Origin: Neocallimastix lanati (nom. inval.)
Lineage: Eukaryota; Neocallimastigomycota; Neocallimastigomycetes; Neocallimastigales; Neocallimastigaceae
Direction of reading: 5' to 3'
NCBI GenBank assembly: GCA_016946835.1
Contig: JACVTC010000027.1
Coordinates: forward strand, 682,001-746,000
Length of the DNA: 64,000 nucleotides
Shown: one piece after another, positions 786 through 55,200 of the stretch
Layout of the letters: the number at the start of each line of letters is the position of its first letter
How positions within the stretch are numbered: the stretch's first letter is position 1
Notes under the pieces: model-generated
What the model saw: the letters and a program-made list of their open reading frames with translations, nothing else
What the model was told of the DNA's origin: nothing
Databases searched by the model: none
Program-made: the position numbers and the translations under genes

Positions 786-3700
786 ATGTTTGATAATAAT
801 GATGAAATTTATAAATTTAGTGATAGTAATAATATTAATTTAGATGAATTAAATAAAATTTATACAATTGATGTTTTATGTAAAAATGTAACAAAAAATT
901 GTAATCATAATGATAATTTAAATAAAGATGAAAATAAAAAGTATATTTCTAAAAAGTGTTCTGTGAAAAATTTGTGTTGTATCTGTAATTGTTTGAAAAT
1001 TAGTAATTTTGAGAATAAATTAAATCAAAAAATTATAGGAATACCTCCTATTTATAATAATTACGTAGAAGTATTCAATGAAAGAAATTGCAACGTACTC
1101 CCTCCACATCGTGAATATGATTATGAAATAAGATTAAAGGATAATTCAAATTTATTTTATGGTCCAATATATCCTTTAACTGAGGCAGAACGAGATGAAC
1201 TAAAAAAGTATATAAAAGAAAATTTAGAAAAAGGATTCATTAGGAAATCCAAATCACCCGCTGGTGCACCTGTATTGTTTGTTAAAAAGAAAGATGGTTC
1301 ATTGAGATTATGTGTTGATTATAGAAAATTGAATGAAATGACCATCCGTAATTCTTATCCTCTTCCTTTAATAAATGAATTATTAGATAGAGTTAAAGGT
1401 GCAAAATATTTTACCAAGTTGGACTTAAAGTCTGCCTATAATTTAGTAAGAATTAAAGAAGGTGATGAGTATAAGACTGCATTTCGTACTCGATATGGTC
1501 ATTTTGAATATTTAGTTATGCCTTTTGGCTTAAAAAATGCTCCAGCCACCTTCCAGCATTTTATTAATGATGTTCTTAGCGATTACTTAGATGACTTTGT
1601 TATTTCTTACATAGATAATATATTAATTTATTCTAATAGTTTAGAGGAACATCATGAACACGTTAAAAAAGTGCTTAAAAAATTATTAGAAAATAACTTG
1701 TACATTAAATTAGAGAAGTGTGAATTCGATGTTACTGAAACCGCCTTCCTTGGTTATATATTATCAAAAGACGGCTTGAAAGTTGATCCTGAAAAGGTTA
1801 AAGCTATCCTAGATTGGCCTGTTCCTTCTAATGTAAAGGAAATACAATCATTTATTGGATTATGTAATTATTATAGAATTTTTATCAAGGATTTTGCTAA
1901 GATTGCGCGGCCCTTACATAAACTTACCAGGAAAAATATTCCATTTCTCTGGGGTTCTGATCAACAAAAATCCTTTGATAAATTAAAAGAACTTTTTACT
2001 TCTGCTCCAATTTTAAGAAATCCTGATAGTAACAAACCTTTCATTGTGGAAACTGATGCTTCTAATTTCGCTGTTGGAGCTATACTTTCCCAAGAATTTG
2101 ATGGTCAGTTACACCCAATTGCTTTTATTTCTACCAGTCTAACCAAATCTCAACTAAATTGCCCCATTTATGATAAAGAGCTTCTTGCAATTAAAGTTGC
2201 TTTGGAAGAATGGCGTCATTACCTTGAAGGTGCTCGCCATCCATTTACTATTTATACTGATCATAAAAACCTTACTTTTCCTAGGAAGCCTGAGCTACTT
2301 TCTCAACGACGAATTCGTTGGTATGAATTTCTTTCTCGTTTCGATTTTAATCTTGTGTTTCGTTCTGGTAAAAAATCTGGTAAACCAGATATTTTGTCAA
2401 GAAGAAGTGATCATTTATTTGATTGTTCTCGTGATGTTTCTTGTTGTGTTATTAATCGTAACTCATGTGACGAGTCATTAATTAATTCTATTTTGAAATC
2501 TTTAAATAATGATGATCTTTTTATAAAAATTAAATCCTTTATTTTAAATAATAGTAATGTTAATCCACCTATTAAATTTATTGATAAGTGTAAAATTGAT
2601 AAGGAAGGTTTCTTACTTTTTGATAACTTAATTTATGTCCCTCAGAATCTTCGCACAAGAGTTCTTGAAATACACCATGACTCTGTTACTGCTGGTCATT
2701 TCGGTGTACGCAAAACATTTGATTTGATTAATCGTAACTTTTGGTGGCCTAAGTTACGTAATGATGTTAAAAAATTTGTTAAGTCTTGTGAAATTTGTTG
2801 TAAAGCTAAAGTTCCAAGACATAAACCCTATGGCCTTCTCTCTCCCTTATCTACCCCAAATAGACCTTGGTCGTATATTTCTATGGATTTTATTGTTGAA
2901 TTACCTAAATCTAAGGATATGACTACTGTAATGACCGTTGTTGATCGTTTAACAAAAATGGTTCATTTTATTCCCTTTCGTTGTCTTCCTACTGCATCCA
3001 TTGCTGCTGATTCTTTTATTAGTAATATCTTTAAGTTGCATGGTTTTCCTGATTCCATTGTTTCGGATAGAGGTACACAATTTACTTCTGAGTTTTGGAA
3101 CCGCCTTTGCGAGTTATTGAACATTAATTTGACTCTTTCCACCGCTAACCATCCGCAGACTGATGGTCAAACGGAGAGGGTGAACGGAATATTGGAACAA
3201 TATCTCCGTTGTTTCATAAATGAAAGACAAAATAATTGGGTTGACTTGTTGCCTTTTGCTGAGTTTGCTTATAATAATACTTTGCAACAATCAATCAATC
3301 AATCACCGTTTTTTGCGAACTATAGATTTAACCCAAAATTTAGTCTAGAAATTCCTTCTTTAGATAGTCCTCATAGAGCTGATGTTAGAGTAAAAGATAT
3401 AAATGAAAATATTAAATTTTTAAAGGAAAATTTAGAGTCAGCTAAAGAAACCTATAAAAAGTATGCTGATTTCAAAAGATTACCCACGCCAGATTTTGAA
3501 GTTGGTAAAAAAGTTTGGTTACTCAAAGGAAATACAACTAAGAATGTAAAAAGGAAATTAGCAGACCAAATGCTTGGTCCATTTGAAATTGTGAAGAAAG
3601 TTAGTTCATTAGCCTACGAACTCAAATTACCAAGTAATATGCGTTGTCACCCTGTTTTCCATGTATCTTTACTGGAACCATATTATGAAAATGAATTTGC

Positions 3701-4049
3701 TAATAGAAATAATAGGAAAAGAAAGAATATTAAGTTAACTACCGATACCATAGATAAGATTCCTGAAAGAATTATTGATATGAGGACATATAGAGGAAAA
3801 AATCGTTTCCTCGTATCTTGGAAAAGCCTAGATTCTGTTGAACATTCTTGGATCGATGAAGATCAAATTTACGATAGACAGCTAATTCAAGAGTACTTTC
3901 GTAAATCTAAAAGGAATAAACGAAATAATGTGGTTGATGATGGTGATAAAGATTTTAATGAAGAATACATTAGGCATAAATATCAACCATTTATAATTGA
4001 CATTCCTTCCCGGAGATTGAACTCTATAGTTCGCAGGAGCTCAACTTAA
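786..4049 (+). CDS. Ty3/gypsy pol (RT-RNase H-integrase-chromodomain), gag and protease missing
   Basis: The 1087-residue ORF encodes the enzyme part of a Ty3/gypsy chromovirus. After about 100 residues of poorly conserved N-terminus come the reverse transcriptase (VLFVKKKDGSLRLCVDYRKL near 165), RNase H (VETDASNFAVGA near 420), integrase with an HH-CC zinc finger (HDSVTAGHFG and CEIC, 630-675) and the D, D, E catalytic residues in SMDFIVEL, SDRGTQF and QTERVNGILEQ (about 700, 760, 796), and a C-terminal chromodomain-like segment (FLVSWKSLDSVEHSWIDEDQ, about 1010). The frame is open back to 702, directly after the LTR-like sequence, and no gag, zinc knuckle or protease is visible. The RT active site reads YIDN (about 275-278) instead of YxDD, which predicts an inactive enzyme. 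The polypurine tract overlaps the stop codon. It is best read as a deletion derivative that keeps a long ORF. Confidence 0.85.
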   Translation: MFDNNDEIYKFSDSNNINLDELNKIYTIDVLCKNVTKNCNHNDNLNKDENKKYISKKCSVKNLCCICNCLKISNFENKLNQKIIGIPPIYNNYVEVFNERNCNVLPPHREYDYEIRLKDNSNLFYGPIYPLTEAERDELKKYIKENLEKGFIRKSKSPAGAPVLFVKKKDGSLRLCVDYRKLNEMTIRNSYPLPLINELLDRVKGAKYFTKLDLKSAYNLVRIKEGDEYKTAFRTRYGHFEYLVMPFGLKNAPATFQHFINDVLSDYLDDFVISYIDNILIYSNSLEEHHEHVKKVLKKLLENNLYIKLEKCEFDVTETAFLGYILSKDGLKVDPEKVKAILDWPVPSNVKEIQSFIGLCNYYRIFIKDFAKIARPLHKLTRKNIPFLWGSDQQKSFDKLKELFTSAPILRNPDSNKPFIVETDASNFAVGAILSQEFDGQLHPIAFISTSLTKSQLNCPIYDKELLAIKVALEEWRHYLEGARHPFTIYTDHKNLTFPRKPELLSQRRIRWYEFLSRFDFNLVFRSGKKSGKPDILSRRSDHLFDCSRDVSCCVINRNSCDESLINSILKSLNNDDLFIKIKSFILNNSNVNPPIKFIDKCKIDKEGFLLFDNLIYVPQNLRTRVLEIHHDSVTAGHFGVRKTFDLINRNFWWPKLRNDVKKFVKSCEICCKAKVPRHKPYGLLSPLSTPNRPWSYISMDFIVELPKSKDMTTVMTVVDRLTKMVHFIPFRCLPTASIAADSFISNIFKLHGFPDSIVSDRGTQFTSEFWNRLCELLNINLTLSTANHPQTDGQTERVNGILEQYLRCFINERQNNWVDLLPFAEFAYNNTLQQSINQSPFFANYRFNPKFSLEIPSLDSPHRADVRVKDINENIKFLKENLESAKETYKKYADFKRLPTPDFEVGKKVWLLKGNTTKNVKRKLADQMLGPFEIVKKVSSLAYELKLPSNMRCHPVFHVSLLEPYYENEFANRNNRKRKNIKLTTDTIDKIPERIIDMRTYRGKNRFLVSWKSLDSVEHSWIDEDQIYDRQLIQEYFRKSKRNKRNNVVDDGDKDFNEEYIRHKYQPFIIDIPSRRLNSIVRRSST

Positions 4050-7519: not shown

Positions 7520-8162
7520 TATAACAAAATATTATAATAAATATAATAACACTCAAAAAAAACAAAAATTATTTTATTTTTTATTTATTTTTTTTTTTTT
7601 TTTAATTATTTTATTAATAATTATATTTATTATAATACTATAAGCCGCAAGGGTTGATATAGTATTAATATTAAAAAAAGTTTTATTAAAAATTAAGTTT
7701 TATTAACTAAACAAAAATTAAAATAAAAAACACAAAGAAAAGAATATTTGTTAATAAGAATTTTACTCATATTTATATTTTTTTTCAAAAGTTAAAGTTA
7801 TTAAAAAATAAAAATAAAAGTTTCTAAAAAGTTCTTAAAAATCGAAAAATTTAGAAAAAATAGAAAACAATAGAATTAAGAATTTAATAGAATAAATTTT
7901 AATTAATTAAACACAAGAATTATCAAGAAATTCTAGTAATTTCTTGAACTATAAAGAATCTTCTAGATATTTTTTAGAATAAAACTATAAAATAATAATA
8001 AATGTGAATCGAACCCTAAGTAGTTTGATTCATGGTATTAGTTACTAACAACTATACCAGAAATAATATTTTTTAAATTTAATTATTTGTTTTAAAACTT
8101 TATTGAAAAATAATACTAAATATTAAAATAATAAAATAATTGTAATTATTGATTCTGTTATA
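7520..8162 (-). repeat. 3' LTR of element B (643 bp)
   Basis: The ends are TATAAC...GTTATA, a perfect 6-bp inverted repeat but not the canonical TG...CA. The partner is 15048-15687 (640 bp), differing by a few indels near 7610 and substitutions near 7860. On the minus strand it carries a tRNA-like A box/B box (8049-8059, 8005-8015), a TATA box (7771-7777) and the inferred RNA start (7733). Confidence 0.9.
8005..8059 (-). promoter_or_regulatory. tRNA-like A-box/B-box pair in the U3 of element B's 3' LTR
   Basis: On the minus strand TGGTATAGTTG (8059-8049) fits the pol III A box TRGYNNANNNG. GGTTCGATTCA (8015-8005) fits the B box GGTTCGANTCC at 10 of 11 positions. They are 33 nt apart, a tRNA-like spacing. 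Flanking AATAATA/TATTATT sequences could form an acceptor-like stem, but the T stem is poor, so this is not a functional tRNA gene by eye. The same pair is in the other LTR at 15530-15584. Confidence 0.6.
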
Positions 8163-8174
8163 ACTCTCTCCCTT
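8163..8174 (-). other. Polypurine tract of element B
   Basis: The minus strand reads AAGGGAGAGAGT between the pol stop codon and the LTR end at 8162. Its position and composition match the plus-strand primer of LTR elements. Confidence 0.75.
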
Positions 8175-10007
8175 AGAGACGGATTCCAGACGTCTTAGGT
8201 TTTGGTTTATTTGGAAACTTCTTGTGGAATTCGGCAAGAAGTTTATTGCAATGAAGATTCTCAAAAGGTTCCCATGAGTTTTCAGAATCATCATAACCTT
8301 TCCAATGAATTAAATATTTAATTTTGTTATGAAATTTCTTTGAATCAAGAATAGATTCAACTTCATATTCTTTTTCTCCATTAAGTATAATAGGTTTTGG
8401 AGTTGGGATATTTCTTTCTGTAAATTCATTTTCATAGGCTGGCTCAAGAAGTGAAACGTGGAAAACTGGAAAGACCCTAAAAGAGTTTGGTAACTTTAAT
8501 TTATAACTTACATCTGAAATTTTCTTTAAAATAGTAAATGGACCAGATTTCTTAGGAGCAAGTTTACCTTTTTTATTATTTATTAAATCATTCCTTAACA
8601 GCCAAACTTTTGAGCCAACTTTAAACTCAGGCGGAGACATATGTTTATCATCATAATATTTTTTTTGAAAATTAACTGCACTTTGAAGATTTTCTTTAAG
8701 TACATTTCTTAATTCTTTTAAGTCTTTAGCAATAATTTCAGCACGAGGGACAATAGAAACATCTGGAGTAGAAGGATCAAATTTAGGATTGAACCCATAA
8801 TTAAGAAAGAAAGGAGTAGCATTTGCAGATTCTTGTATTGTGTTATTGTAAGCAAATTCTGCAAGAGATAAATATTCCATCCAATTATTTTGTTGATAAT
8901 TAACATAACATCTTAAGTATTGTTCAAGTATTGCGTTTACCCTCTCCGTTTGACCATTAGTTTGCTGATGATGAGCAGATGATAAACAAAGATCAACATG
9001 AAGTAAATTAAATAATCTATTCCAAAATTTAGAAGTAAACTGAGTACCTCTATCCGACACAATATCCTTTGGCAGACCATGAAGTTTGAAAATAGAATTA
9101 AGAAATTGTTCAGCACAATCCTCAGCAGAGGGAACTGATTTAAAGGGAACAAAATGAGCCATCTTCGTAAAGCGATCAACTACGACAAGAATACAAGACA
9201 TACCATTGGAAGAGGGAAGATCTGTTATAAAATCCATTGAAATTGATTCCCAAGGATTATTGCCAATGGGTAAAGATTTAAGTAAACCGTAAGGTTTATG
9301 ACGAGGAGCTTTTGAAGCGCAGCACACATTACAAGTACGAATATATTTTTTAATATCCTTATGCATACCAGGCCACCAATAATTTCTAGAAACTAAGTCA
9401 GAGGTTTTATTTATGCCAAAGTGGCCAGCAGTAGGAGAATCATGACAAGAACAAAGAATTTTAAATCTAAGGCATTCAGGAATATAAATAAGATTGTCAT
9501 ATAAAAGAATACCATTGGAGAACGAAAGGAGATCAATCGAAGCAATGGGTTTCTCATTAGCAGAAGGCTTTTCAAAATATATCTTAACATTATTAAAGAA
9601 AGGATCCTTGGAGTAACACTTTTTAATTTCATCTTGTAGATTTGATTCAATAGAGATCCTTGAAGTAAAACAAAAATTTTCCGGTTTAAGTACTTGGTAA
9701 GGTTTAGCAGGTTCATGATTATCATAATCAGGACGGCGAGATAAAGCATCTGGCTTACCACCGCGAGAACCTGGACGATACTCAATTTGAAAGTCAAATC
9801 GAGTAAAGAACATTGACCATCTAATTAAACGTTGTGAAAGCTGTTCTGGTTTCTTAAAGTAGAGTAGATTTCTATGATCAGTAAGAACTTTAATAGTATT
9901 CTTAGCACCTTCTAAATAGTACCTCCAAGTTTCAAAAGCAGTCTTAATAGCAAGTAACTCTTTATCATAAATTGGATAATTGCATTCAGCAGAGGTAAAA
10001 GCTCTAG
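8173..10007 (-). pseudogene. Element B gag-pol, 3' part: RNase H (end), integrase, chromodomain
   Basis: This is the downstream half of the element B polyprotein, separated from its start by element C. It opens within RNase H ([14 protein letters not shown]). It continues with the integrase zinc finger ([10 protein letters not shown] and CNVC) and the catalytic D, D, E in SMDFITDL (near 9231), SDRGTQF (near 9055) and [11 protein letters not shown] (near 8945). It ends with a chromodomain ([20 protein letters not shown]) near 8280-8340. Discounting element C and one TSD copy leaves 4329 nt from 8173 to 13843, exactly 1443 codons with no other break seen. The stop is followed at once by the polypurine tract. 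Confidence 0.9.
10003..10007. repeat. Target-site duplication of element C, left copy (TCTAG)
   Basis: TCTAG precedes the left LTR of element C and recurs directly after the right LTR at 11345-11349. Confidence 0.92.
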
Positions 10008-10381
10008 TGTAACGTTTTAGGTTAATCACCAGGTTGGTGTATTAACTTAAATAAACAAATAAATGTAAAATATTGAAAAACACTTTAAATATTAAAATAT
10101 TATTTAACAAATCATTTATTTTATCAAGATATTTATTTATTTATTTATTTATTTAATGTTTAATGTTAATGAAACCTCGAAATTATTAAACTAATTTTAA
10201 ACTACATGTTTTTATATCAAAATAAAATCAAACCTAATAATTTGATTGGTAAAATAATTTATAATAAAATTTAACAAAATAATATTTTCAATAAACAAAA
10301 AGTGTAATAGATGGAGTCGAACCAGTGACATCTTGTACTGAGCTCCAACTATTAACCACTAGACTAATAGGTTTCATTACA
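10008..10381 (-). repeat. 3' LTR of element C (374 bp)
   Basis: It looks identical by eye to 10971-11344. On the minus strand it starts TGTAATGAAACC and ends AAACGTTACA. It carries the tRNA-like module at 10304-10380, a TATA box (TATAAA starting at 10216) and the 10-mer complementary to the primer site (10169-10178). A short TTTA repeat lies at about 10132-10155. Confidence 0.93.
10304..10380 (-). ncRNA. tRNA-like sequence at the start of element C's 3' LTR
   Basis: This 77-nt minus-strand segment begins one base inside the LTR. It has an A box TAGTCTAGTGG, a B box GGTTCGACTCC (a perfect match to the consensus), partly paired ends (GTAATGA with CTATTAC) and a D-arm-like CTATTA/TAATAG stem. 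A TTTTT run just downstream resembles a pol III terminator. The anticodon and T stems are weak, so it is a tRNA-derived pol III promoter-like module rather than a working tRNA. Confidence 0.65.
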
Positions 10382-10393
10382 ACGCTCTCCTCC
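10382..10393 (-). other. Polypurine tract of element C
   Basis: The minus strand reads GGAGGAGAGCGT immediately before the LTR start TGTAATG. The composition matches the tracts of B and E and sets the element's orientation. Confidence 0.7.
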
Positions 10394-10433
10394 AAGGAAC
10401 GGATTCCAGACGTTCTAAAGGTTAATAACTAAG

Positions 10434-10555
10434 TAACCAGCAATGAAAACTGGGAGAAATTACACAGAATAAAAGAGCTAACCAGGAAGTATATCTGGGA
10501 GAAATTACAGCGAGTTTAGAGGTAACCAGCAGCAGAGACTGGGAGAAATTACAAC
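10434..10555. repeat. Three tandem 44-45 bp repeats in the core of element C
   Basis: The units start at 10434, 10479 and 10523. Each has TAACCAG, a variable 9-10 nt spacer, then CTGGGAGAAATTACA. CCAG and CTGG within each unit can pair, so the RNA could form three similar small hairpins. A leader-like role in packaging or dimerisation is possible but unproven. Confidence 0.7.
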
Positions 10556-10960
10556 TAGTGGATTCGTGGTTGATTTAGCCATAAGTCAGAAGTCAGTGGC
10601 AGAAATAGTGGTAGAAGCAAAGATGCGCGGAGAAGGGCTTGTTTCCGAGAAGATCAAAAATTTCCATAAAACGTTGAGAAAATATGAGCTAAAGGGTTCC
10701 AACTGGTAGAAAGTGATTTTTCCTTGATGGATGGGTTAGTTTCTTGATGGAACGAACATTCTAGAACTGAGAATCAGGTGTAACAGAAAACATAGAACGT
10801 CGGATAAGGATTACAGAAGCACTGACCACAGAAAGTGTTTTTCAGAGTTATATCTAAATATATGAATATATATTATATAAAGAAATTATATAAATAGAGT
10901 TAGTTAAAGTTTACTAAAACGAGCCAAAATACACCAAGGTGGTGACTTAGTTGCTTTAGG

Positions 10961-10970
10961 GAGGTTTCAT
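10961..10970 (-). other. Self-complementary primer site of element C
   Basis: The minus-strand sequence ATGAAACCTC directly after the 5' LTR is complementary to GAGGTTTCAT inside the LTR (11141-11132), 38 nt downstream of a TATA box. This fits Tf1-type self-priming. No TGG-type tRNA site is present at this position. Confidence 0.65.
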
Positions 10971-11344
10971 TGTAACGTTTTAGGTTAATCACCAGGTTGG
11001 TGTATTAACTTAAATAAACAAATAAATGTAAAATATTGAAAAACACTTTAAATATTAAAATATTATTTAACAAATCATTTATTTTATCAAGATATTTATT
11101 TATTTATTTATTTATTTAATGTTTAATGTTAATGAAACCTCGAAATTATTAAACTAATTTTAAACTACATGTTTTTATATCAAAATAAAATCAAACCTAA
11201 TAATTTGATTGGTAAAATAATTTATAATAAAATTTAACAAAATAATATTTTCAATAAACAAAAAGTGTAATAGATGGAGTCGAACCAGTGACATCTTGTA
11301 CTGAGCTCCAACTATTAACCACTAGACTAATAGGTTTCATTACA
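10971..11344 (-). repeat. 5' LTR of element C (374 bp)
   Basis: This is the upstream copy in element orientation. The tRNA-like module lies at 11267-11343 with the A box at 11319-11329 and the B box at 11276-11286. The TATA box starts at 11179 and the inferred RNA start is at 11141. The next-door TSD copy is 11345-11349. Confidence 0.93.
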
Positions 11345-11349
11345 TCTAG

Positions 11350-13843
11350 AATAGAAAGCAATTGGATGAAGCTTATTATCTTTAGAGCTAACTTGAGATA
11401 AAATACATCCAAGCGCAAAATTACTTGCATCCGTTTCAACAAAAAATTGAGAATTAGGATCAGCAGGAATAAGGATGGGAGCAGAAGTAAAAGAACGTTT
11501 AAGAAGTTCAAAGGAGTCATTAGCATCTTTTGACCAAACAAAAGGATCATTTTTTCTTGTAAGTTTATTAAGAGGATAAGCAATTTTAGCAAAATTTTTT
11601 ATAAAGCGTCTGTAGAAATTGGCTAGGCCAAGAAACGATTGAACTTCTTTAACTGTAGTTGGAGCAGGCCAATCTAAAATAGCTGAGACTTTCTTAATAT
11701 CCATCTTAAGACCATCTGAAGATACATAATATCCTAAAAATTTAACTTCGAACTTATCAAACTCACATTTTTCAAGGTTAACATGTAAATGAAATTTCCT
11801 AAGTTGTAATAGTACTTTTTTAACGTGTAAATGATGTTCAGAAAGATCATCAGAAAAAATGATAATATCATCAATATAGGCATAACAAAATTTACCTAAA
11901 TAGTCACTTAATGCAGTATCAATCATTCTTTGAAAACAGGCAGGTGCATTCTTGAAACCGAAAGGCATAACTCTAAATTCAAAGTGTCCTAAGCTACATA
12001 CAAAAGCTGTTTTGTATTCATCTCCAGACCTGATACGAATTTGGAAGTAAGCAGATTTTAAATCAAGCTTTGAGTAATACTTATGACCAGGAGCTTTATT
12101 AAAAATAACAGTTGTTAAAGGCATAGGATAACTATCTCTAATGGTGATTTCATTAAGTTTCCTAAGATCAATACACATACGTAACTCACCATTATCTTTT
12201 GGAGCAAATAAAATTGGATGACCAGCTTCTGATTTTGACCTAACAATAAAACCGTATTTTAAATAGTCTTTAATAATTTTTTCTAAAGCTATTTCTTCGG
12301 GAATTGTAAGGGGATAAATTGCACTATAATATAACTTAGTATTAGGTTTAAGGTCAATAGCACAATCAAAACTAGAATGAGGAGGTAAGATTTTAGCTTC
12401 TTCTTCACTAAATACATCAGAGAATTCTAGATAAATGGCGGGAAGTGTTTTATTTGGAGTATCCATGTTTGGGGAAGAGGCAATTGAATTCTTCAACACG
12501 GAAGGAGAAATAGAAGAATTATCAAACAAAGAATTATTAGGGGTGCATGAACTGGAATAGGCTGGTTTCGAAGAGATAGAGTCGGAAGTATTAGAAGTAA
12601 GAGAAAGTGAAGTAGAGTTAACCGAGGTTGAAGGTATTGATTCAACAAAGGAAGAATCTGACGCATTGTTATTACTATTGCAAAAGCTTAAAATATTATT
12701 GTTGAAATCAATTGATGATTTATTTTCTTTAAGAAATCTAGAACCAATTAAGCACTCAAATTTGTCGTTCAAATCAATAACAAAAAATTCTGTTAAGACC
12801 TGAAGGTTACTAACTTTAAATAATATTGGTATAGTTTTACCAACAACGTCTTTGCCACCACCAATACCAGTAATGTTATCAGCTTCTAAATTATCATGTA
12901 CAAGCTTAAAATTATTAATTTTAGCAAAATTACTATCCATAAGATTCAAGTCGGAGCCGGAATCTATAAGAGCCTTAGCTTTAATCCATTTATTTTTGTA
13001 GTTAAAGGAACACTTAATAATACAATCTTTATTAAATTTCTTAGAAGAATTAGATCTAGCCATATGGGAGGAGCCAGGTTTATTTGCTCGCTTTGGACAA
13101 TTTATTAACTTATGGCCTGATTGTCCACAATATAGACAAAGCCCTTCTTTAATTCTTCTTGCTCTTTCTTCAGGGGATAAATGAGAGTAATTTGAATCAT
13201 TATTTGATTTGAAAAAAGAATTAGAATTGGCGTTTCTATTATTACTAGAGTTAAATCTATAATACTTCCTATTATTACGAGAATTATTATTATTATTACT
13301 GTTATTTCTAGAATTGTAATTGTTGATCGTTGCGAATCGAGTCATTTGATGATCTATACGATTGGTAATTCGCATTAGTTCACTTAATTTGGCAGGAGGA
13401 GGGAACAAACTAATTACTCTTTCTTGAAGTCTTGGTAGCAATCCTTCAATATAAACATCCATTAAGGCAAATTCATTCCAGTCCGTTTTTTCCGAAAGCC
13501 TACGGAATTCATTATTGTAATCAGTGACTTTACCATATGCTTTTTGCTTAATATGCATAAGAGCTTGATTACAATTAAAAACTGCATCTACGTCACTGAA
13601 TCTATCCTTCATAAGTTCAATGAAAGCGTTAAAATCGTCAAGGACTGGGTTATTTTCATTCATCAAGTCTGCAGCCCAATCCATAGCTTCATCTCTTAAC
13701 AAAGTGATGGTATAAGCTACTTTTAACGGATCATTGGTGAAATATTCAGGACGAAGAGCAATGGCTAACCCAACATAAGCTAAAAATCCCTTGAGCTTAG
13801 CTGAATCGCCATTAAAATGAAAATCGTTTGATGAAGAAGACAT
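11350..13843 (-). pseudogene. Element B gag-pol, 5' part: Gag, zinc knuckle, protease, RT, start of RNase H
   Basis: ATG at 13843 begins a retrotransposon Gag (MSSSSNDFHFNGDSAKLKGF; DWAADLMNENNP; HIKQKAYGKVTDYNNEFRRL). An Asn-rich stretch (about 173-215) and a CCHC knuckle, CLYCGQSGHKLINC, follow. The aspartic protease has a normal DSGS motif (ALIDSGSDLNLMDS) and a CLIGSRFLKE flap-side motif. RT has an intact YIDD near residue 656. RNase H begins with VETDASNFALG, and the reading frame is then broken by element C after HPIAFYSR. All visible catalytic residues are intact, so only the insertion disables this copy. Confidence 0.92.
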
Positions 13844-15036
13844 TGAAAGAATTATTAAATTATAAACAAGTTTAAGAATTGCAATAGGAAGATTTATTTA
13901 ATATTATCACTATTATTATTATTATTATTTTTTTTTTTTTTTTTTTTTTTTATTAGTGCTCCCGAATGAAAATTGTAATGATAAAGAATTATAAATTATT
14001 ATTTTTCTAGGCGTTTAGTTTAATTGCTGATTTAAATTTTTTTTTTTTTTTTTTTTTAAATTTAATTTGGTAAATATAATAACTAGACTAAATTTCACTC
14101 TTTTATGCCTTACAACAAAATAAAAAACCGGCAAGAGTTACTAACTAGAGGTATATACTAGACCTCAAAATAAAAAATTATAAACTATATATTTTAAAGT
14201 CGCTTTACCTTCACGACCAACCTATAGCCTTCGGTGACTATAGTTCCTTATTCGCCAGAGCTTATTCGAATAGAGCAACCACCGAACTGTTGAAGTTGGT
14301 TGGTAGGATGTGGCTTTCGTTTAATCCACACGCTCTTCACGCCCTAGGGTTTTGAAGCCCGTTTATATTCGAATAATTAACGGCTATAGTTTCTAACCTA
14401 CTGAAACTAGTTACTAACCGCCGAAACTCTGTTTATGAGCTCTAATCGCTCCTAGTATATTTAAATATTATATTTACCTGTAATATTCTTTAAAAAGTCT
14501 CAAGAACTGTAGAACTTCTTAAAGAATTTTTTATATCAAAAAAAATTTTTTTTTTTTTTTCGCCTAGATAGATTTTGGTATAATTGTGAGTATGCTATTA
14601 ATACCAAAAACCGAGAATTTTATTTTTTAAAGAAAAAAAAGTAGATTCAAGAAGCAAGGCTGAACCCAAAGAAGATATCAGAGACTAAGAGAAGAAGAGA
14701 TTTTGTCCAAAAGTAGAAACCAAGAATCAGAAACCCGAAACCAATGGAAACAAAAACCAAGTCCAAAACTAAGAAATCTGAAACCAATGGAAACAGAAAC
14801 CAAGACCAAAAATAAGAAATCCAAGGCAAACAGAAAGAATCTAACCAAAAGTGGAAACCTGAAGCCAATAAGATAAGTAGCCAAACAGAAACCAAAAACA
14901 AAGGAAACAGAAAATCCGAGAGATTCAAAAAAAAAGTCCAAAAAGAAAACAAAAAGGCAGTAGACACTAATTCCAAAAGAAAGCTTCAAACCAAACAAAA
15001 GGGTAGATATATCAAGGCACGGCGTCAAAATCTTGG
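13844..15036 (-). other. Unusually long 5' leader of element B (about 1.2 kb)
   Basis: There is no convincing gene between the 5' LTR and the gag ATG. 13915-14060 holds long T runs. 14205-14470 is a GC-richer block with many short inverted repeats, probably structured RNA. 14645-15030 is purine-rich on the + strand with imperfect repeats around GAAACCAATGGAAAC, hence pyrimidine-rich in the element's RNA. Two overlapping minus-strand ORFs of about 110 codons here (within 14647-15028) are very hydrophobic and Phe/Leu-rich, which is what such a pyrimidine-rich repeat yields by chance, so they are not called as genes. For comparison, element E has only about 86 nt of leader. Confidence 0.6.
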
Positions 15037-15047
15037 GTGTTTTTTAT
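15037..15047 (-). other. Self-complementary primer site of element B
   Basis: The minus strand reads ATAAAAAACAC immediately after the 5' LTR. Its complement GTGTTTTTTAT occurs inside the LTR (minus strand 15258-15248 and 7733-7723), 44 nt downstream of TATAAAT. The 11-nt match, adjacency to the LTR and TATA spacing fit self-priming as in Tf1. The sequence is low in complexity, so by itself it is weaker than the site of element E. Confidence 0.6.
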
Positions 15048-15687
15048 TATAACAAAATATTATAATAAATATAATAACACTCAAAAAAAACAAAAATTAT
15101 TTTATTTTTTATTTATTTTTTTTTTTTTTTTTATTATTTTATTAATTATATTTATTATAATACTATAAGCCGCAAGGGTTGATATAGTATTAATATTAAA
15201 AAAAGTTTTATTAAAAATTAAGTTTTATTAACTAAACAAAAATTAAAATAAAAAACACAAAGAAAAGAATATTTGTTAATAAGAATTTTACTCATATTTA
15301 TATTTTTTTCAAAAGTTAAAGTTATTAAAAAATAAAAATAAAAGTTTCTAAAAAGTTCTTAAAAATCGAAAAATTTAGAAAACAATAGAAAACAATAGAA
15401 TTAAGAATTTAATAGAATAAATTTTAATTAATTAAACACAAGAATTATCAAGAAATTCTAGTAATTTCTTGAACTATAAAGAATCTTCTAGATATTTTTT
15501 AGAATAAAACTATAAAATAATAATAAATGTGAATCGAACCCTAAGTAGTTTGATTCATGGTATTAGTTACTAACAACTATACCAGAAATAATATTTTTTA
15601 AATTTAATTATTTGTTTTAAAACTTTATTGAAAAATAATACTAAATATTAAAATAATAAAATAATTGTAATTATTGATTCTGTTATA
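15048..15687 (-). repeat. 5' LTR of element B (640 bp)
   Basis: It has the same TATAAC...GTTATA ends as the 3' copy. It contains the tRNA-like B box (15530-15540) and A box (15574-15584), the TATA box (15296-15302) and the inferred RNA start at 15258. The TSD copy follows at 15688-15692. Confidence 0.9.
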
Positions 15688-18494
15688 GTATTAATAATGT
15701 AATTAGTACCAATAAAATTAATACAACTAATAAAAATAAAACTTTGGAAGAATTAATCAGCAATATGGATATCAAGGATGAAAATTTTAAAAATGAAATT
15801 AAATCCATATTAACTTCATATTCAGATGTAATAGCTATATCTAGTGATGATTTAGAACCATCCAAATTGCTACCTCACCATATTGAATTACTAGAAGGTA
15901 GCAAGCCTATAAAACAAAAGGCATATAGGATCTCCTAGGTACAACTTTCAGCACTAAAAGAAGAATTAAAAAAATTAATAGACAAAGAATTAATCTCACC
16001 TTCTCATTCACCTTGGTCTTCACCTGTTGTTTTAGTGCCAAAGAAAAATGGTAGATGGAGATTGTGTATAGATTATAGGTTATTAAATAAAATAACAAAA
16101 AAAGATGCTTATGCCATCCCTATAATTCAAGAAATTTTTGATGCATTGAAAGATGCAGTAATATTTTCTACTATTGATCTTTTTAGTGGGTATCACCAGA
16201 TACCCATGTATGAAAGCGACCAAGAAATTACTTCTTTTACAACTAAATTTGGAAATTATTACTTTAAGGTAATGCCTTTCGGATTGACTAATGCTCCGGC
16301 AACCTTCCAACGCGAAATGAATAGGATTTTCTTTGACTTAATTAATAAATGTGTTCAAATTTATCTAGACGATATTATTGTTTATTCACCATCCATTGAA
16401 CAACATTTAATCGACTTAACAAATGTATTTAAAATTCTCAGAAAATTTAAATTAAAAATGAATATTGAGAAATGTCATTTTTGTGTTTTTGAAGTGGAGG
16501 CTTTAGGACATAAGATTTCAAACAAAGGATTATTACCACTAGAAAAGAAGATTGATGCAATAATGAAGTTGGATAATCCTTCTAATGTTACGGAATTACG
16601 TTCTTTTCTTGGAATGGTGGGTTACTATAGGAATTTCATTGAAAATTATGCTACATTAACTTCGCCGTTATGCAAATTACTAAGGAAAAATTCTACTTTT
16701 GAATGGACTAATGAGCATACTACTAGTATAGAAAAATTAAAGGAAGCTCTTTGTCAAGCACCTATTTTGTGTTATCCACGTTATGATAAACCATTTATTA
16801 TACGCACTGATGCTAGTTATCAAGGAATTGGTGGTGTTTTATTGCAACTATATAATGATGAAATAGAACACCCAGTATTTTATATTAGTCGTTCCCTGTA
16901 TAAGTCAGAACTTAATTACCCGATAACAGAGTTAGAAGATACCGCGGCATATTTTTGTGTAAATAAATTTAAACAATATATATTAGGTAATCCGTTTCAG
17001 ACAATACTGTATACAGATCATCAACCTTTAGTCCCTATCATTATGAAATGCGAACCTAATACTAGTAAACACGCTCGTTGGTGTGATTTATTCAGTCAAA
17101 TACAAGTAAAAGTTGTCTACCAACCAGGGAAAAGGAATATTATTGCTGATGCATTATCTCGTATTAGAAAAAAAGAAAATATTGTAGTAAATGCTATTGT
17201 TGAAGAAAATAATAATAATATGAGAAATAATATTGAAAATAATAATAATATTGTTGATGAAAATAACGTAGAAATTATTAGTAATAGCAATAATGAAAAT
17301 GATCATTCGAACTTTTTGGACGAAGCCGAAAATGAAGAATATATTTCTAAATTCATGAAAAAGTTTTTAAAAGACAGAATTGTTACTATAGATGGTAAGA
17401 CTTATATTAGAGATAATAATAAACTACGATTGGTAATAGACGACTACTTGGAGAAGATAAAAATTATAGGTATGGCCCACAGAACTGGACATGATGGGAT
17501 ACAGAAAACGTACAATAGAATAAAACAAAATTATTATTGGAAAAATATGATTCTTGATATCAAAAAGTACGTCTCTCTTTGCAAAATATGTTAATTAACC
17601 AGATCTGAACCCATTCCTGAACAGATAGAAAAATTTCCATCTCCTTTGGAAGCTCCTTTTGTAAAGTTAGGATTAGATATAGTAGGTCCACTTAAACAGA
17701 CTCCTTGAGGTTTTAAATACTTAATAGTATGTGTGGACTATTTTACAAGTTGGGTAGAAGCAAAGCCAACAGTTTCAGTAACTTCGCAAGACGTAACAAA
17801 TTTCTTAATTGAAGTATTTAGTAGGCACGGACTTCCACAAGTTATAAATATGGATAATGGACCTCAGTTAAATTCAGATTATACCAAGATATTTTTAGAT
17901 TTATATGGGATATATATTCATTTTGTTTCAGTTTATCACCCGGCTTCGAATGGACTTGTAGAAAATAGAAATAGGGAAATTGAAAAGAAACTTAGGAACT
18001 TTGTAGAAGATAATGAAATTTGGGATTTACTACTACCTTTATTGTTATGGGCTTTACGAACATCAAGATCGTCAGTATCAGGATACTCTAGTTTCGAATT
18101 ATTATATGGACGGGAAGACTTATTACCTATTGAAATTAACATTAGGAATTCTATTGAGGAACCAATTCAAAGAACTATGGATGAACTTCTTATCGAGCGA
18201 TTCTTGGAACATCAACGTTGGATTAAAGAAGCTGCTAATAAAAGATTAGGAACCATTAATTATTGGAAGACTAGAAGGGAAGCTAAACAAAGTATGACAA
18301 ATAAGAATAATTATAAAATTGGAGATAAAGTAAAAATAAGAAGATTTCAAAGACACAAGTTAGAACCTTACTATTCTGGACCTTATACTATAAAAGAAAT
18401 AACTTGGAATACAGTAAAATTACAAGAAGATAGGACAGGAATTATACTACAACGAAATGTTCATATTAAAAACATTTTACCATATAAAGAATAG
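15688..18494 (+). pseudogene. Element A pol remnant (right part): RT, RNase H, integrase
   Basis: This continues element A beyond the insertion. After 70 residues of linker, RT begins (KKNGRWRLCIDYRLLNK at 16035) with an intact YLDD near 16362. RNase H follows (IRTDASYQGIGG), then an Asn-rich linker (about 17200-17310), an integrase zinc finger (HRTGHDG and CKIC), and a core with D (LGLDIVGPL), D (NMDNGPQLNS) and E (NGLVENRNREIE near 17958). The end (VHIKNILPYKE) has no chromodomain, unlike B, E and element 1. In-frame stops interrupt it at 15937 (TAG), 17592 (TAA) and 17706 (TGA). Each is one C-to-T change from CAG, CAA or CGA, which would fit the conserved residues around them. No 3' LTR is found downstream. 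Confidence 0.85.
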
Positions 18495-34939: not shown

Positions 34940-35478
34940 TGTCAAAAATTAAAGAAAAGTTAATATTTGCTTAAATTTTCTTAAAACTTATTTTTTAGTA
35001 ATGAAATTTAGGGAATTAAAAAAAATTAATTTTATTTATTTTTTATTAAAATAAATAGTCGTTATAAATAATTAAATATGGCTACGATTTTATAAATCGG
35101 GAAAAAAAAAATTAAAAATGATTATAAGTTTTTTATCAAAAATTGTTAACGCTAATCGCTTAACAATTTTTTTTCGTTTTCTTCTTTTTATACTGACAAT
35201 TTCACTAAATTTAGAAGTTATTAAAATTAAAATTAAATTTAAAAGTTTATTGTATATAGTAGATTATTATTTTCAATTCTGCTAAATGATTTTTTAATTT
35301 GTTTATTCAACTATTCATTAACTAAACTAAAATTTATTTAAACAATTACTATTGATTCACTTATATAATTAAATATTAAGTTAAAACTATTAATTAATTT
35401 TTCATTAAATTTTAAAAATTTAATTAATCCAATAATGGATTAATTTAATCACAGTACAAGTATCGTCAGTTCTTGACA
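34940..35478 (-). repeat. 3' LTR of element E (539 bp)
   Basis: Ends TGTCAA...TTGACA give a 6-bp inverted repeat with canonical TG...CA. It differs from 40725-41262 by a substitution near 35044 and one base in an A run. It contains TTGTTAACGCT at 35143-35153, complementary on the element strand to the primer site. Confidence 0.95.
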
Positions 35479-35489
35479 CTGCCTCCTCC
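35479..35489 (-). other. Polypurine tract of element E
   Basis: The minus strand reads GGAGGAGGCAG between the stop codon and the LTR start TGTCAAG. Confidence 0.75.
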
Positions 35490-35497
35490 AGGAACCA

Positions 35498-38400
35498 TTA
35501 CTCCGGATGGTTAACAGTGGCACAAAATTTATCGTAAATGAACCTTTGATATCCGGCTAATACCGGGTCGTAATACTTGTCCTTATCAATAATATCTGCA
35601 TCGACCCAATCTTGGGAATTATTCCTTCTAAGAACCAAGTATTGGTAGTTTCCCTTATACTTTCTTGAGCTAAGAATTCTAATTATTTCTGATGGTCGGT
35701 CCTTAGACGTGGAAGAAAATTCCGTGGGGTTATGACTTCTTTTATAGTAAGGCTCTAATTCACTAACATGAAATATAGGGTACATATTCGGAAATGGTGA
35801 GCTAGAAAGGTCCAAGCGAAAATTATTTTGTTCTGGGTAAACTCCAGTGATTTTAAAAGGACCATAACGTCGCGTTTGTAATTTATAAAATGGGAGTGGG
35901 TTGAAACTGGCAGGCTTTTTCAACCAGACTAGATCACAAAGTTGGTACTGGACCGGAGGATTAGCAAGTTTCTTATCCTTAGCATTTAAGTAGTTTTCTT
36001 TTTGGATAGCTAGTATATGTTTTAGGTTAGCCAGATTGTGGGCAAAACTATCAATGTGGGGTGCTGCACCAAGTGAATGTACTAAGTCGGCGGTTTGAGG
36101 ATTAGCGTACAGCTGGTAATTGTATAGAGCTAGGAATGGAGCTTGGCCAGTAGAAGCATGGATCGAATTATTGTAACAAAATTCAGCTAGGTATAACCAC
36201 TTGATCCAAGACTCATTATCAAAATTTTCTAAAAAACAACGAAGGTATTGTTCCACATAAGCATTGGTTCGTTCAACCTGGCCAATAGTATGGTGGTGGT
36301 TAGTAGTAGCAAGTCTGTGGTCTACTCCTAAGAATTTCATTGTTTTCTTCCAGAACTTGCTGGTAAATTGGACTCCGCGGTCAGTAGTAATAATTAGTGG
36401 TAATCCATGTAACTTAAAAATATTTTGGAGGTATGCAGAGGCAGTTTCAGCTGCAGTTGGAACGTGATTAAATCCAACCAAGTGCACCATCTTAGTCAAG
36501 ACGTCACAAACCACCATAATGCATCCGCGGTGGGAACGTTCCGTAGAGTTTTCGTTTAATTTTGGTTTAGAAGGTAAAGCTGTAATGAAGTCAATTTGTA
36601 CCTGTTGCCATGGAAGTTCTGGTACGGGTAGTCTAACCATTTTTCCATAAGGTTTGTGTCGAGAATCCTTCATTTTGGCACAAATTTCACAGGATTGTAC
36701 ATAATCTGTTACGTCTTTTTTCAAGTTTGGCCAGGTATACCAGCGGCGTATTAATTCATAAGTTCTCTTGATACCTAGATGACCAGCTGTTTCGTCATCA
36801 TGATTAAGTTTCATGATGGTTTTTCTTAAGTTAGGGGGGACATATACCTTCCCTTCCCTCTCTAAGATAATTCCATCCTCGAGGGACCAGTTGTCCATGA
36901 AAGATTTATCCTTAGCTGCAAGTTTGGTTAAGATTTCTTGGGCCAGAGCATCTTGCAAATAACCCTGTTTAATGTCGTCAACAAAAAAAGATTCCTGGAA
37001 TGTAATCAAACAGGCATCGTTCGAAGGGTTGTCGAAACCTTGAAATTTTTCGGGTGAAATGATAGGGCATTCATCCAAGTTCTGGCTGGCTAGTACTTCG
37101 TGGTCAACTCTACGGGAAAGTTGGTCAGCTTTACCATTCGACTTACCAGGTCTGTAGATAATGGTAAAGTCAAAAGCAGATAAGAATTCCTGCCAACGAG
37201 CCTGGCGTTGGGTAAGTAGTTGTGGTTTACTGGCAAAAAGTAAATTACGGTGATCAGAATAAACCTGGGTTTGGAATTTGCTGCCTAGAAGTAGGTGTCT
37301 CCATTCAACGAAGGCTGTCTTAATAGCTAAAAGTTCTTTCTCGGTAATAGAATAATTAATTTCAGCTTTAGAAAGACTTTTAGAATAGAAATAAACTGGA
37401 TGTAGTAAATCGTCTTCGCCATATTGAGAAAGAACACCACCAATGGCAAAGTTGCTCGCATCGCATTCCACGATGAAAGGCTTGTCTTGGTTAGGATAAG
37501 CCAGAACAGGGGCGGAAACCAAAAGTTCTTTTAACTTGAGGAAAGCAGCCTGGCAGTCGTCGTTCCACACGAATTCAACATCTTTTTTGGTAAGGTGATG
37601 AATTGGTCTGGCAATTTTAGAGAAGTCTTTGATAAAACGGCGGTAATAATTGCAAAATCCGATGAAAGATTGAACTTCTTTAATGTTAGTAGGAGTGGGC
37701 CAAGAAGTAATGGCTTCGAGCTTGTGAGGATCAGTCTTGATGCCCTCACTGCTAACAATATGGCCGAGAAATTCCACTTCTTGTTTGTGGAATTCGCATT
37801 TAGAGATTTTGGCCACCAACTGATTATCGATGAGAAGTTGCAGGACGGTTTGTACCTGTTTAACATGCTCATCAAAAGATTTTGAATAGATGATTATATC
37901 ATCTAAGTAAACCTGAACGTATTTATTGATTACGTCTCGGAGAACAGTATTAATGAATCCTTGAAAAACAGCGGGGGCGTTGGTAAGACCAAAAGGCATC
38001 ACAGTGTATTCATAGTGACCATATTTTGTGCGGAAGGCGGTTTTAAATTCGTCACCTTCACGAATTCTGATGAGGTTATAAGCACTTTTTAGGTCGAGTT
38101 TGCTAAAAATTTTCGAGCCTCTCATAGCTTCGAAAACAACAGTGATTAAAGGGAGTGGGTATGAGTTCCGTAGGGTTTGTTGGTTTAACTTCCTATAGTC
38201 GATACATAGGCGGAGCTCCCCATTCTTCTTTCTTTGGAATAGCACTGGATGTGCGGCAGGAGAGATGGATCTTCTTATGAATCCATTTGCCAAGTTGTCC
38301 TTGAGGTATTTCTGAATTTCTTCATCCTCTTCCTTGGACGTAGGATATATTGGACCATAAAAGAAAGTGGCACCTTCCTTCAATTCTATTGCACAATCGT

Positions 38401-40627: not shown

Positions 40628-40647
40628 GATAATTTCTCTTATTGTTT

Positions 40648-40695
<48 letters not shown>

Positions 40696-40713
40696 CGGTA
40701 AATCTTCTCTAAA

Positions 40714-40724
40714 AGCGTTAACAA
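40714..40724 (-). other. Self-priming primer-binding site of element E
   Basis: The minus strand reads TTGTTAACGCT directly after the 5' LTR. Its exact 11-nt complement AGCGTTAACAA lies inside the LTR (minus strand 40937-40927), 39 nt downstream of a TATAAA box (40976). This is the Tf1 arrangement, in which the first 11 nt of the transcript fold back to prime reverse transcription. No tRNA-type TGG site is present. Confidence 0.8.
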
Positions 40725-41262
40725 TGTCAAAAATTAAAGAAAAGTTAATATTTGCTTAAATTTTCTTAAAACTTATTTTTTAGTAATGAAATTTAGGGAA
40801 TTAAAAAAAATTAATTTTATTTATTTTTCATTAAAATAAATAGTCGTTATAAATAATTAAATATGGCTACGATTTTATAAATCGGGAAAAAAAAATTAAA
40901 AATGATTATAAGTTTTTTATCAAAAATTGTTAACGCTAATCGCTTAACAATTTTTTTTCGTTTTCTTCTTTTTATACTGACAATTTCACTAAATTTAGAA
41001 GTTATTAAAATTAAAATTAAATTTAAAAGTTTATTGTATATAGTAGATTATTATTTTCAATTCTGCTAAATGATTTTTTAATTTGTTTATTCAACTATTC
41101 ATTAACTAAACTAAAATTTATTTAAACAATTACTATTGATTCACTTATATAATTAAATATTAAGTTAAAACTATTAATTAATTTTTCATTAAATTTTAAA
41201 AATTTAATTAATCCAATAATGGATTAATTTAATCACAGTACAAGTATCGTCAGTTCTTGACA
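40725..41262 (-). repeat. 5' LTR of element E (538 bp)
   Basis: It has the same ends as the 3' copy. U3 contains a TATAAA box at 40971-40976 (minus strand), and the inferred transcript start is at 40937. No A/B-box pair was seen, unlike B and C. Confidence 0.95.
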
Positions 41263-52277: not shown

Positions 52278-55200
52278 TTAAAGAGTCCAATCAATTCTGA
52301 AAACATTATCAAAGAATTTATCAATTTCTGATGTTGAGGATGATGTACTTTTATTATCATTGTTGGAATATTTGTTGGAACGTTGTTTTGATGATGAGGA
52401 TGAAGAAGAAAGAGGATTAGATAAATTAAAATCATCTAATAATCCTGGACTACTTTTACTTGTTGGAAGTGGTGTTGTCTTACTTCTTTCACCATTAGCG
52501 TAACGTCTGGAAGTACTTTCTTGATTATAAGAAAGAGATGACATATGTGGTAAATCATATTTTGAGAGTGAATTTGAAGAATAGGATTTCTTTATTGAGG
52601 AGGAATTAGAATTATTCTCTTGACTATTTCCAATTTTATATCTTTGATAACTACGAACAGGTGAGGACGATTTTTCACTACTTTTACGTCTTATTAAATA
52701 ACTTTTATTACTTATACTATTTGAAGAAAGATTATCTCTACTGATACTTCTTTCCTTTTCTCTCTCTCTCTCTCTTTCTCTTTCTCTCTCTCTTTCTTTC
52801 TCTCTTTCTCTTTCTCTTTCTCTCTCTCTTTCTCTTTCCTTTTCCTTTTCTTTTTCCTTATTAGATCTTGATTTTGATTTTGTGAGTGAAGTCAAGAATC
52901 TACTAGCTCTTTTACTTGAAGAATTCTTTGAGGAACTACGAGTAATACTACTATTATTATTTGAAGAATTAGAATTAGAATTAGAATTTGAATTTGAATT
53001 AGAAAGCATACATCCACTTAATACATCCATCTTGGAAGATCCACAATTAGTACTACTGGATGTATTGGCATTTGAAATAGATGGAGAACTTGATGGTGAG
53101 TTTCTACCAGAAGATGAAGTATAACTATTCCTTTTATAATACAATTGTGGACTACTCATATTGTTATTATTTTCTTTAGCTTCTCTTTCCTTAGCTTTTT
53201 TAGCTTCTTTTTCTTTTGCTTTTCTAGCTTCTCTTTCTTTTGCTTCTCTTTCTTTTGTTTCTTTTTCTTTTGCTTTTTTAGCTTCTCTTGCCTTTTTATC
53301 TGTTACTGCAACATCACCACTAACATCATATCCAGCTAATTCTTGTTGTCTTTTTAATTCTTCAAATTCGTGGTATTCAAACTTTAACGAACTACGTCTC
53401 TTATTTTGTTTTTCCATTTCTTCCTTCTTCTTAATATATTTTTGATGTCTTTCGGATGGAATTGAATAAATTTCATATTCCTTACCATTACTTACAACTG
53501 TTGGTGGTGGTGTTGGAGCTCTTGATGGACGTCTACGTGGTCTTTCCTCTACAACATTACCATTACTATCCTTTGTTTTAGCTTTAGAGTTCAAGTTAGA
53601 AGAATTGAATGTTAAATCGTTACCAAGTAAATCATCATCACCAACAATATGTGGAATTAATGAAACAATATCCATAACATCAGCAAATTGGAAGAGTAAT
53701 TCATCCATTGATCTTCTTTGCATAGCTGGAGGTTCTGATATTTTTTGTGGACGTAAACGAACCTTGGATTGCTCTGGTATCGACTTTTTATCCCTTTCTT
53801 CCTTTTTAGTTTTAGTTTTAGTTTCATCGTTACTCTTATTGAGTTTATATTTATTCTTAATAGAAACATCCTTATCAGAGAGTTTGTAGGTTGGCTTATT
53901 CTTCATGTAATTTGAAGTTGAAGATTTACGGACAGGAATTGGCTGTTGTTGTGAAGAAAGTGAATTATTATAAGATAACAATAAGGATGAATCGGAAATT
54001 GCTGATAAAGATGGAGAAGAAGATGTAGTGGTGGAAGTTTGTGTGTCATCTTGTTGAGAGGGTATATTAAATGATCTAGCAACAAATGTATTATTATCTT
54101 TATTATTATTAACTGTGTTGGAAGCGGAGTCGTCTGTTTTTTCATTTATAGCCATAGTAGAATCAGATTTCTTATTAAGCTTTTCTTCAGAATTAATATA
54201 AGTCTTTTCGGTAGAAACAATACCTGATTTTTGTAATTCTCTAATAACTTCATTACATTTTTCTTCAGATAATTTAATATTTGCCTTTAATGAATCTTTT
54301 CTTGGTTCTCTTTCAATCTTTTTACGACGAGAACGTTCCTTCTTTGATTTCTTTGATTCTTTTACTTCAGAAGTTTGTTCTGTTGTAGTTTCTGTCATCG
54401 TTTCAGTATTACCTTCTATCTTAGTAGTTTCAGTCTTAGTTTCAGTTTTGGCGTTAGCAGTATCCTTATCCTTACTGCTAAAGTCAAGAGTAATTTTCTT
54501 AACATTTTCTTTTGGTTCACTAACTTTTTGCTCCTTAACCGTATTTTCATTGACATTCTTTGAAGAAGGTTTCTTTGTCATTTCTTTTGATGGAGCTAAG
54601 TTTTTCTTATTTTCAGGCTTTATAGTACTCTTTTCAACAATAGTTTCTTGGATACTCTTTTCATTGATATTTGGAGGTAAGATACCTTGTTCATTACTAT
54701 TATCAGTAATTTGTTGATTTTCAATAAATGCTGGTTTAATTGGTTTACCATTACTCTTGTGAGTAACTGAACTTTTTCTGACTGGTAACTGAATAACAGT
54801 ATTATCATTAGTGATAATAACACCTCCATTTTGAGTATTTGTATCATTAATATTTTCTTTATTTTCTTCATATTGTGATTCTTTGTTAGAGAATTCTATT
54901 GAATCATACCTTTCTTCAACCAATGCATCCTGTACATCTTCGTCCGATATATATTCTATTTCACTCTCATTTTCTTCCATCATTTCCTCTTGTAATAATT
55001 GTTCCTCTGTTATTTCACCATTTTCTATTTGCCTTCTTCTATTTTGTTGGTAACGAATTTGGTGATCTGTCCAGTTATTATATATATCATTAAATAAATT
55101 TTGAACAAGAACAACTTTTCTCATATCTAAAATTGTGTCTTGATAATATGAATTTAATTTTGTTGTTGTAATATTTGCTAAATGAGTTGGGTTAATTAGC

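Follow-up and report, generated by a model that had tools for sequence, protein, structure and literature searches.

A non-coding, Helenus-like LTR retrotransposon with a tRNA-like module in its LTRs and a putative self-priming layout in the gut fungus Neocallimastix lanati

The window analysed here is a stretch of 64,000 nucleotides of the Neocallimastix lanati genome with a GC content of 20%, in which a cyclin gene is also present, its best named relatives being those of Neocallimastix lanati (76%), Anaeromyces robustus (67%) and Piromyces finnis (61%). Besides Ty3 frames at 786-4049 and 16035-18494, two Ty3 elements lie on its minus strand, and the primer-binding site (PBS) test in the window covered these two. 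Two long frames, of 978 aa at 52281-55214 (minus strand) and of 509 aa at 61555-63081 (plus strand), had no Pfam match at E up to 0.001. One of the Ty3 elements is a chromovirus, in whose integrase Pfam detects a chromodomain along with a Tf2-1-type SH3 domain; the other has the Tf2-1-type SH3 domain and no chromodomain match. The pol gene of the chromovirus is interrupted by a short LTR element, and the match to its RNase H domain is divided between the two frames flanking this insertion.

As shown in Table 1, the inserted element consists of two LTRs, alike at 374/374 positions, and a non-coding interior of 589 bp, and no ORF of at least 150 aa lies wholly within 10008-11344. Read in what we infer to be the sense direction, the LTR ends are TGTAAT..GTTACA. 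An empty site was found in two of four stretches taken from presumed chromovirus copies, where TCTAG is present once with the flanks joined, the other two being unalignable there; the meeting of the flanks at a single TCTAG in these relatives of the host element establishes that an insertion took place and where exactly it ends. The original prediction had described a non-coding LTR element of 1337 bp with identical LTRs and a perfect 5-bp target duplication, all of which stands, and its claim of recent movement is judged right, the LTRs in the window being identical. It is confirmed that the window element is a real non-coding LTR retrotransposon with a tRNA-like module in its LTR.

Table 1. 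Positions of the element, its parts and the neighbouring Ty3 elements in the window.
Feature	Position	Strand	Remarks
Whole element (TRIM/Helenus-like)	10008-11344	- (inferred sense strand)	1337 bp
5' LTR (sense reading)	10971-11344	-	374 bp, identical to other LTR
3' LTR (sense reading)	10008-10381	-	374 bp
Left target site duplication	10003-10007		TCTAG; empty site known
Right target site duplication	11345-11349		TCTAG; empty site known
tRNA-like module, 5' LTR	11267-11343	-	A box 11319-11329, B box 11276-11286
tRNA-like module, 3' LTR	10304-10380	-	A box 10356-10366, B box 10313-10323
T5 run after module	11260-11264; also 10297-10301	-	possible weak Pol III terminator
TATAAA	11174-11179; also 10211-10216	-	38 bp upstream of self-primer
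Self-primer GAGGTTTCAT	11132-11141; also 10169-10178	-	inferred Pol II transcript start
Primer-binding site ATGAAACCTC	10961-10970	-	directly after 5' LTR
Three imperfect 32-nt repeats	10433-10553		element interior
14-mer ACGGATTCCAGACG	10399-10412		common with pol end of chromovirus 7520-15687
Polypurine tract GGAGGAGAG	10385-10393	-	3 bp before 3' LTR
Ty3 chromovirus interrupted by element	7520-15687	-	LTRs 7520-8162 and 15048-15687; target duplication GTATT
Chromovirus PBS	15037-15047	-	self-primer 15248-15258
Second Ty3 element, self-priming layout alike	34940-41262	-	PBS 40714-40724; self-primer 40927-40937

The assembly containing the window (199 Mb, 762 contigs) was searched for further copies. 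The 374-bp LTR, which the original prediction had put forward as a query, gave 40 scored matches among 52 candidates, including solo LTRs with 5-bp duplications; the interior gave 24 matches in 16 candidates, nine of them near full length; and an 86-bp module query gave 40 scored matches among 41 candidates. Uninterrupted copies with two LTRs are located at C190 (the window), C217, C1, C249 (twice) and C29, and since the C249 and C29 copies have common flanks, they amount to four distinct insertions, with the target duplications TCTAG, AAAAG, ATTTG and GATAT. Copies with nested insertions are found at C654 (target duplication GTTAC), C39 (GATTT) and C2 (AATAC/AATAT, one mismatch), and the C24 copy retains the interior and one LTR. 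Perfect 5-bp duplications flank nine distinct solo-LTR insertions, and four more have one mismatch, with L013/L014 and L022/L023, which have common flanks, each counted once and the decayed L040 excluded. The flanks of the 75-76% relatives at C357, C176, C688 and C168 are alike when compared by eye, which marks them as old duplicated copies. The module-side LTR end is broken in L034, L035 and L036, and one base is changed there in L015. The family is one of young, non-autonomous LTR retrotransposons of the TRIM type, Helenus-like by structure.

No coding copy with the LTR of the element was seen among the genome stretches examined. LTR pairs 13-15 kb apart at C654 and C2 were considered as autonomous partners and rejected, much of the extra DNA being nested retroelements with their own LTRs. 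At about 1854199-1862715 of C2 (L043-L044), a long-ORF LTR element with identical 545-bp LTRs is nested directly after the LTR of the element. A nested solo LTR of another family accounts for the additional 1.2 kb in C39 and for the additional DNA beside the interior start in C24. Solo LTRs of that family (TGTAAAATATT..TTTACA) occupy nearly the same interior spot in three old copies, L029, L045 and L041 (C39, C24 and C654, respectively), inverted in one; among 12 other copies, eight are flanked by perfect 5-bp duplications, the target sequences varying (catgg twice), one has a single mismatch, two are without duplication and one is without clear ends.

The tRNA-like module starts one base inside the LTR, whose minus-strand start is TGTAATG; its A box, TAGTCTAGTGG, begins at LTR base 16 and its B box, GGTTCGACTCC, at LTR base 59, and the first T5 run after it lies at LTR base 81. 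The original prediction had placed such a module, with its A and B boxes, at the minus-strand beginning of the LTR and a T5 run just behind it; the boxes proved exact. Within the window, the general A-box/B-box pattern is confined to these two LTRs; 0/100 dinucleotide shuffles of the window contain it, and among the examined loci L009-L056 it is seen only in copies of the LTR of the element. When 40 LTR rows were aligned (38 genome loci and two from the window, duplicates of one insertion included), 32 had an exact A box and 22 an exact B box, with 20 having both. The LTR ends TGTAAT..GTTACA enclose the module in 32/40 rows, the others being broken or changed at one end, so the LTR boundary of other copies also includes the tRNA-like part. 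Both boxes are retained in young copies, and exactly so in those nearest that of the window; older copies have lost one or both, roughly in parallel with decay elsewhere in the LTR. The module and the LTR body diverge by about 14% and 23-26%, respectively, in L037/L038, and by 17% and 16-18% in L039/L040. In old dead copies the module therefore has no consistent excess conservation over the LTR body, as is expected of dead copies, and this comparison gives no indication of purifying selection on it.

Likeness to a tRNA was assessed by tRNA searches. Default ARAGORN found no tRNA, and the Rfam tRNA model gave no match even at E up to 10; lenient ARAGORN (-ps80) detects the module, yet also 9/500 shuffles. 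The resemblance of the module to a tRNA is confined to the promoter boxes and a loose fold, and its descent from a tRNA is putative. In a genome-wide tRNA search, 63 of 9278 candidates were scored, almost all with one score, and the five examined were tRNA-Arg(TCT); no parent tRNA of the module emerged. This gene appears to be strongly amplified (C555, C78, C93 and others; L067-L071), with copies about 530-555 bp apart in one C555 stretch.

The 5' LTR is followed directly by ATGAAACCTC, 10 nt that exactly complement GAGGTTTCAT at LTR base 204. Complementarity of this length, beginning at the first base beyond the LTR, exists only in the minus sense; a plus-strand reading of the element was rejected, since the PBS complement there reaches 4 nt at most and the coding neighbours have their purine tract on the opposite side. 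As a control, 0/2000 single-base LTR shuffles attained 10 nt, and the exact primer 10-mer was found in 3/5000 dinucleotide shuffles. The 17-mer across the LTR/PBS junction has nine places in the genome, all in the family of the element, and the primer 10-mer is intact in 35 of the 40 LTR rows; the five in which it is altered are strongly diverged copies. Folding of 260 nt of RNA from LTR base 204 predicts all ten primer-PBS pairs at probabilities of 0.90-1.00. The sequence ATGAAACCT is present twice, at the PBS (window 10962-10970) and near the LTR start (LTR bases 5-13), so the self-primer could also pair with the U3 start in the 3' LTR.

The same layout was found in both of the tested Ty3 elements of the window. 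Read along the coding strand, the interrupted chromovirus has an 11-nt self-complement, GTGTTTTTTAT, directly after its LTR, for which the control is weaker (16/5000 dinucleotide shuffles and 0.35-0.4% of single-base shuffles), and the Ty3 element 34940-41262 has an 11-nt self-complement, AGCGTTAACAA, at the same place (1/5000 dinucleotide shuffles). TATAAA stands 44 bp upstream of the self-primer in the chromovirus, 39 bp in 34940-41262 and 38 bp in the window element. A TATAAA 35-47 bp before that position appeared in 102, 124 and 94 of 2000 shuffles of the LTRs (about 5-6% per LTR), which makes the spacing weak singly, and it is the three elements together that form the argument. The 11-nt complement of the chromovirus is retained in two further copies (C40, C46); its predicted 5' ends at C4, C14, C1 and C120 are without the expected LTR, and conservation of the chromovirus PBS therefore rests on these two extra copies. 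Among four coding or long-ORF elements inspected at the PBS side, two fit the self-priming layout; the nested element at C654 has 7 nt of complement at the LTR edge and 10 nt further in, and the PBS side of the nested element at C2 resembles what we take to be a tRNA-type PBS.

A link to a Ty3 helper is also suggested by the other end of the interior. Purine tracts are present in both Ty3 elements at the same place as GGAGGAGAG, and the 14-mer ACGGATTCCAGACG, which adjoins the polypurine tract of the element, matches the last codons of the pol gene of the interrupted chromovirus. The 16-mer around this 14-mer has 59 exact genome matches, of which the window copy, C40 and C46 are those confirmed as this chromovirus. 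Of its 19 one-mismatch places, nine are the element itself; seven others, of the AACGG form, resemble a related chromovirus subgroup by pol end and LTR end, and the frames were broken in the two that were translated. Gapped interior similarity between the element and the chromovirus was not above shuffles (alignment score 33, shuffle maximum 36), and the helper link thus rests on the anchored position of the 14-mer. The chromovirus LTRs were not brought up by the genome search with the LTR of the element; Kojima found the LTRs of a Helenus and its Copia relative to be likewise unlike (PMC10886601). Both the self-priming layout and the Ty3 link were unforeseen by the original prediction.

Taken together, these features make it likely that the element is a TRIM started by Pol II, self-primed in the Tf1 manner and moved by a Ty3 helper, with the module in U3. 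Synthesis of the genomic RNA by Pol II would begin at GAGGTTTCAT, directed by the TATAAA 38 bp upstream; the RNA would fold back on itself, bringing its first 10 nt into pairing with the PBS that adjoins the 5' LTR; it would then be cut at the paired stretch, and the released piece would prime reverse transcription, as in Tf1. Gag, reverse transcriptase and integrase would be supplied by a self-primed Ty3 element of the same genome, for which the chromovirus family of the interrupted element is the best candidate, and these helper proteins would package and copy the RNA of the element. The tRNA-like module would occupy the beginning of U3, upstream of the inferred RNA start, and it probably binds Pol III factors (TFIIIC). 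This reading runs counter to the published proposal that genomic RNA is transcribed by Pol III from such modules. A more tentative reading, possible although we lean slightly against it, is a TRIM with two promoters, in which the TATA at LTR base 166 would direct Pol II to produce the self-priming genomic RNA and a separate Pol III unit would lie at the LTR edge, upstream of the RNA start. This unit might yield a small tRNA-like RNA, or TFIIIC binding might keep the LTR open or steer integration.

Alternatively, Pol III itself could make the genomic RNA, as proposed for TRIMp3, starting at the LTR edge, passing the first T5 run and ending in the 3' LTR, with the module as the R region. The A box at LTR base 16 puts a Pol III start near base 1-5. 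The sense strand is also without a T run of at least six (4.3 expected in dinucleotide shuffles, none in 0.85% of 2000); however, A runs of at least six are equally absent, so the missing T runs are not strand-specific. T5 runs lie at 81, 302 and 685, before the 3' LTR, and the layout of TATA and self-primer agrees with the two Ty3 neighbours, which makes Pol III synthesis of the genomic RNA unlikely. Somewhat less improbable, yet still not expected, is that the module is a mere remnant of a tRNA or SINE, acquired in the distant past and without Pol III activity, in a TRIM otherwise served by Pol II; the silence of Rfam and default ARAGORN and the unexceptional decay in old copies suit this explanation, whereas the box counts over the 40 LTR rows and the exactness of both boxes in the copies nearest that of the window speak against it.

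Priming by a tRNA anticodon arm and movement by Copia, as in the Helenus elements of rust fungi, is the mode of most published fungal Helenus (PMC10886601), and the PBS complement of the window element does end in CAT. One anticodon-arm pattern that fits the PBS has 0 matches in the genome, however, and among the 15 genome places of the 12-nt PBS complement, nine are the element itself and the other six are without a tRNA by default ARAGORN, with one weak lenient hit. With the self-complementary layout common to the two Ty3 neighbours, this mode is very improbable here. A repeat in L085, L086, L088 and L089, consisting of GGGGAGGTTTCATTA followed by an ACGTGAT-containing stretch, includes the 12-nt complement of the PBS. 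The short size and tRNA-like head could likewise suggest a repeat of SINE-like or composite nature instead of an LTR retrotransposon, but the TG..CA repeats, 5-bp duplications, PBS, polypurine tract and solo LTRs leave this scarcely credible. Of the 40 scored module matches, 38 are inside LTR matches and one is in a partial LTR of C39; the remaining one, at C26 (L056), is accompanied by a further LTR stretch in the same order and is thus probably an old LTR remnant, so that no independent SINE copy of the module was seen among the 40.

TRIMs with tRNA-like LTR sequence were named Helenus by Kojima in 2024 and comprise 113 families in Pucciniales, in addition to others in Agaricomycetes, animals and Selaginella (PMC10886601). 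The original prediction had known of no fungal LTR element built this way; with more than 100 such families described from basidiomycete fungi, this claim falls, and its interpretation as a whole is partly supported. Like the window element, Helenus elements are non-coding and have two LTRs with A and B boxes, a PBS, a polypurine tract and solo LTRs, and those of fungi have 5-bp target duplications. The published fungal elements are from basidiomycetes, mostly have tRNA anticodon-arm primers and are Copia-like in their PBS, and the longest Helenus of any host, from wasps, measures 1263 bp, the longest LTR being 323 bp (PMC10886601). The window element differs in its length of 1337 bp with 374-bp LTRs, in its gut-fungus host, in its self-complementary PBS and in its link to Ty3. 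What is already known is the existence of tRNA-bearing TRIMs in fungi, and what is new is the self-priming layout and the Ty3 link. In the open-licence literature, no other description of a tRNA-bearing LTR element in this fungal group was found in titles and abstract starts, and the name Helenus was found only in PMC10886601.

Among other known systems, retrozymes resemble the window element in being short, non-autonomous and bounded by LTRs that carry a small-RNA module, but their module is a hammerhead ribozyme. To our knowledge, no tRNA-like LTR module occurs in the Tf1/sushi chromoviruses. These are autonomous, coding elements, whereas the window element has neither gag-pol nor a chromodomain integrase (its interrupted neighbour has the chromodomain); a self-complementary PBS directly after the 5' LTR is common to both. 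Passages of PMC10085805 and PMC4600332 describe the self-priming of Tf1, Tj1 and other Tf1/sushi elements, with a PBS complementary to their own RNA start, and the RNA fold involved; a passage of PMC6934838 cites Tf1 and others as known cases of self-priming, and no clear mechanism is put forward there for the bivalve TRIMs it describes. Retrozymes are named in PMC10886601, as are Cassandra, a plant TRIM, and Ajax of nemerteans, both of which have a Pol III-type promoter in the LTR like the window element; their module is derived from 5S rRNA instead of being tRNA-like, and Ajax is reported to be primed by tRNA-Leu (PMC10886601). No Rfam match, 5S rRNA included, was found in the element region (E up to 1) or in the window (gathering thresholds).

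If the preferred reading, a Pol II-started and self-primed TRIM moved by a Ty3 helper, is right, tRNA-bearing TRIMs extend from basidiomycetes to gut fungi and are tied to a different class of helper, Ty3 instead of Copia. The element would also be a case in which the genomic RNA seems to be driven by a promoter other than the Pol III module, and the question of what Pol III modules do would become testable by mapping of RNA 5' ends. Should the two-promoter arrangement be true, the Pol III module of a TRIMp3 would be decoupled from genomic RNA synthesis, and Helenus elements could arise from self-primed Ty3 elements, here in an early-diverging fungal lineage.
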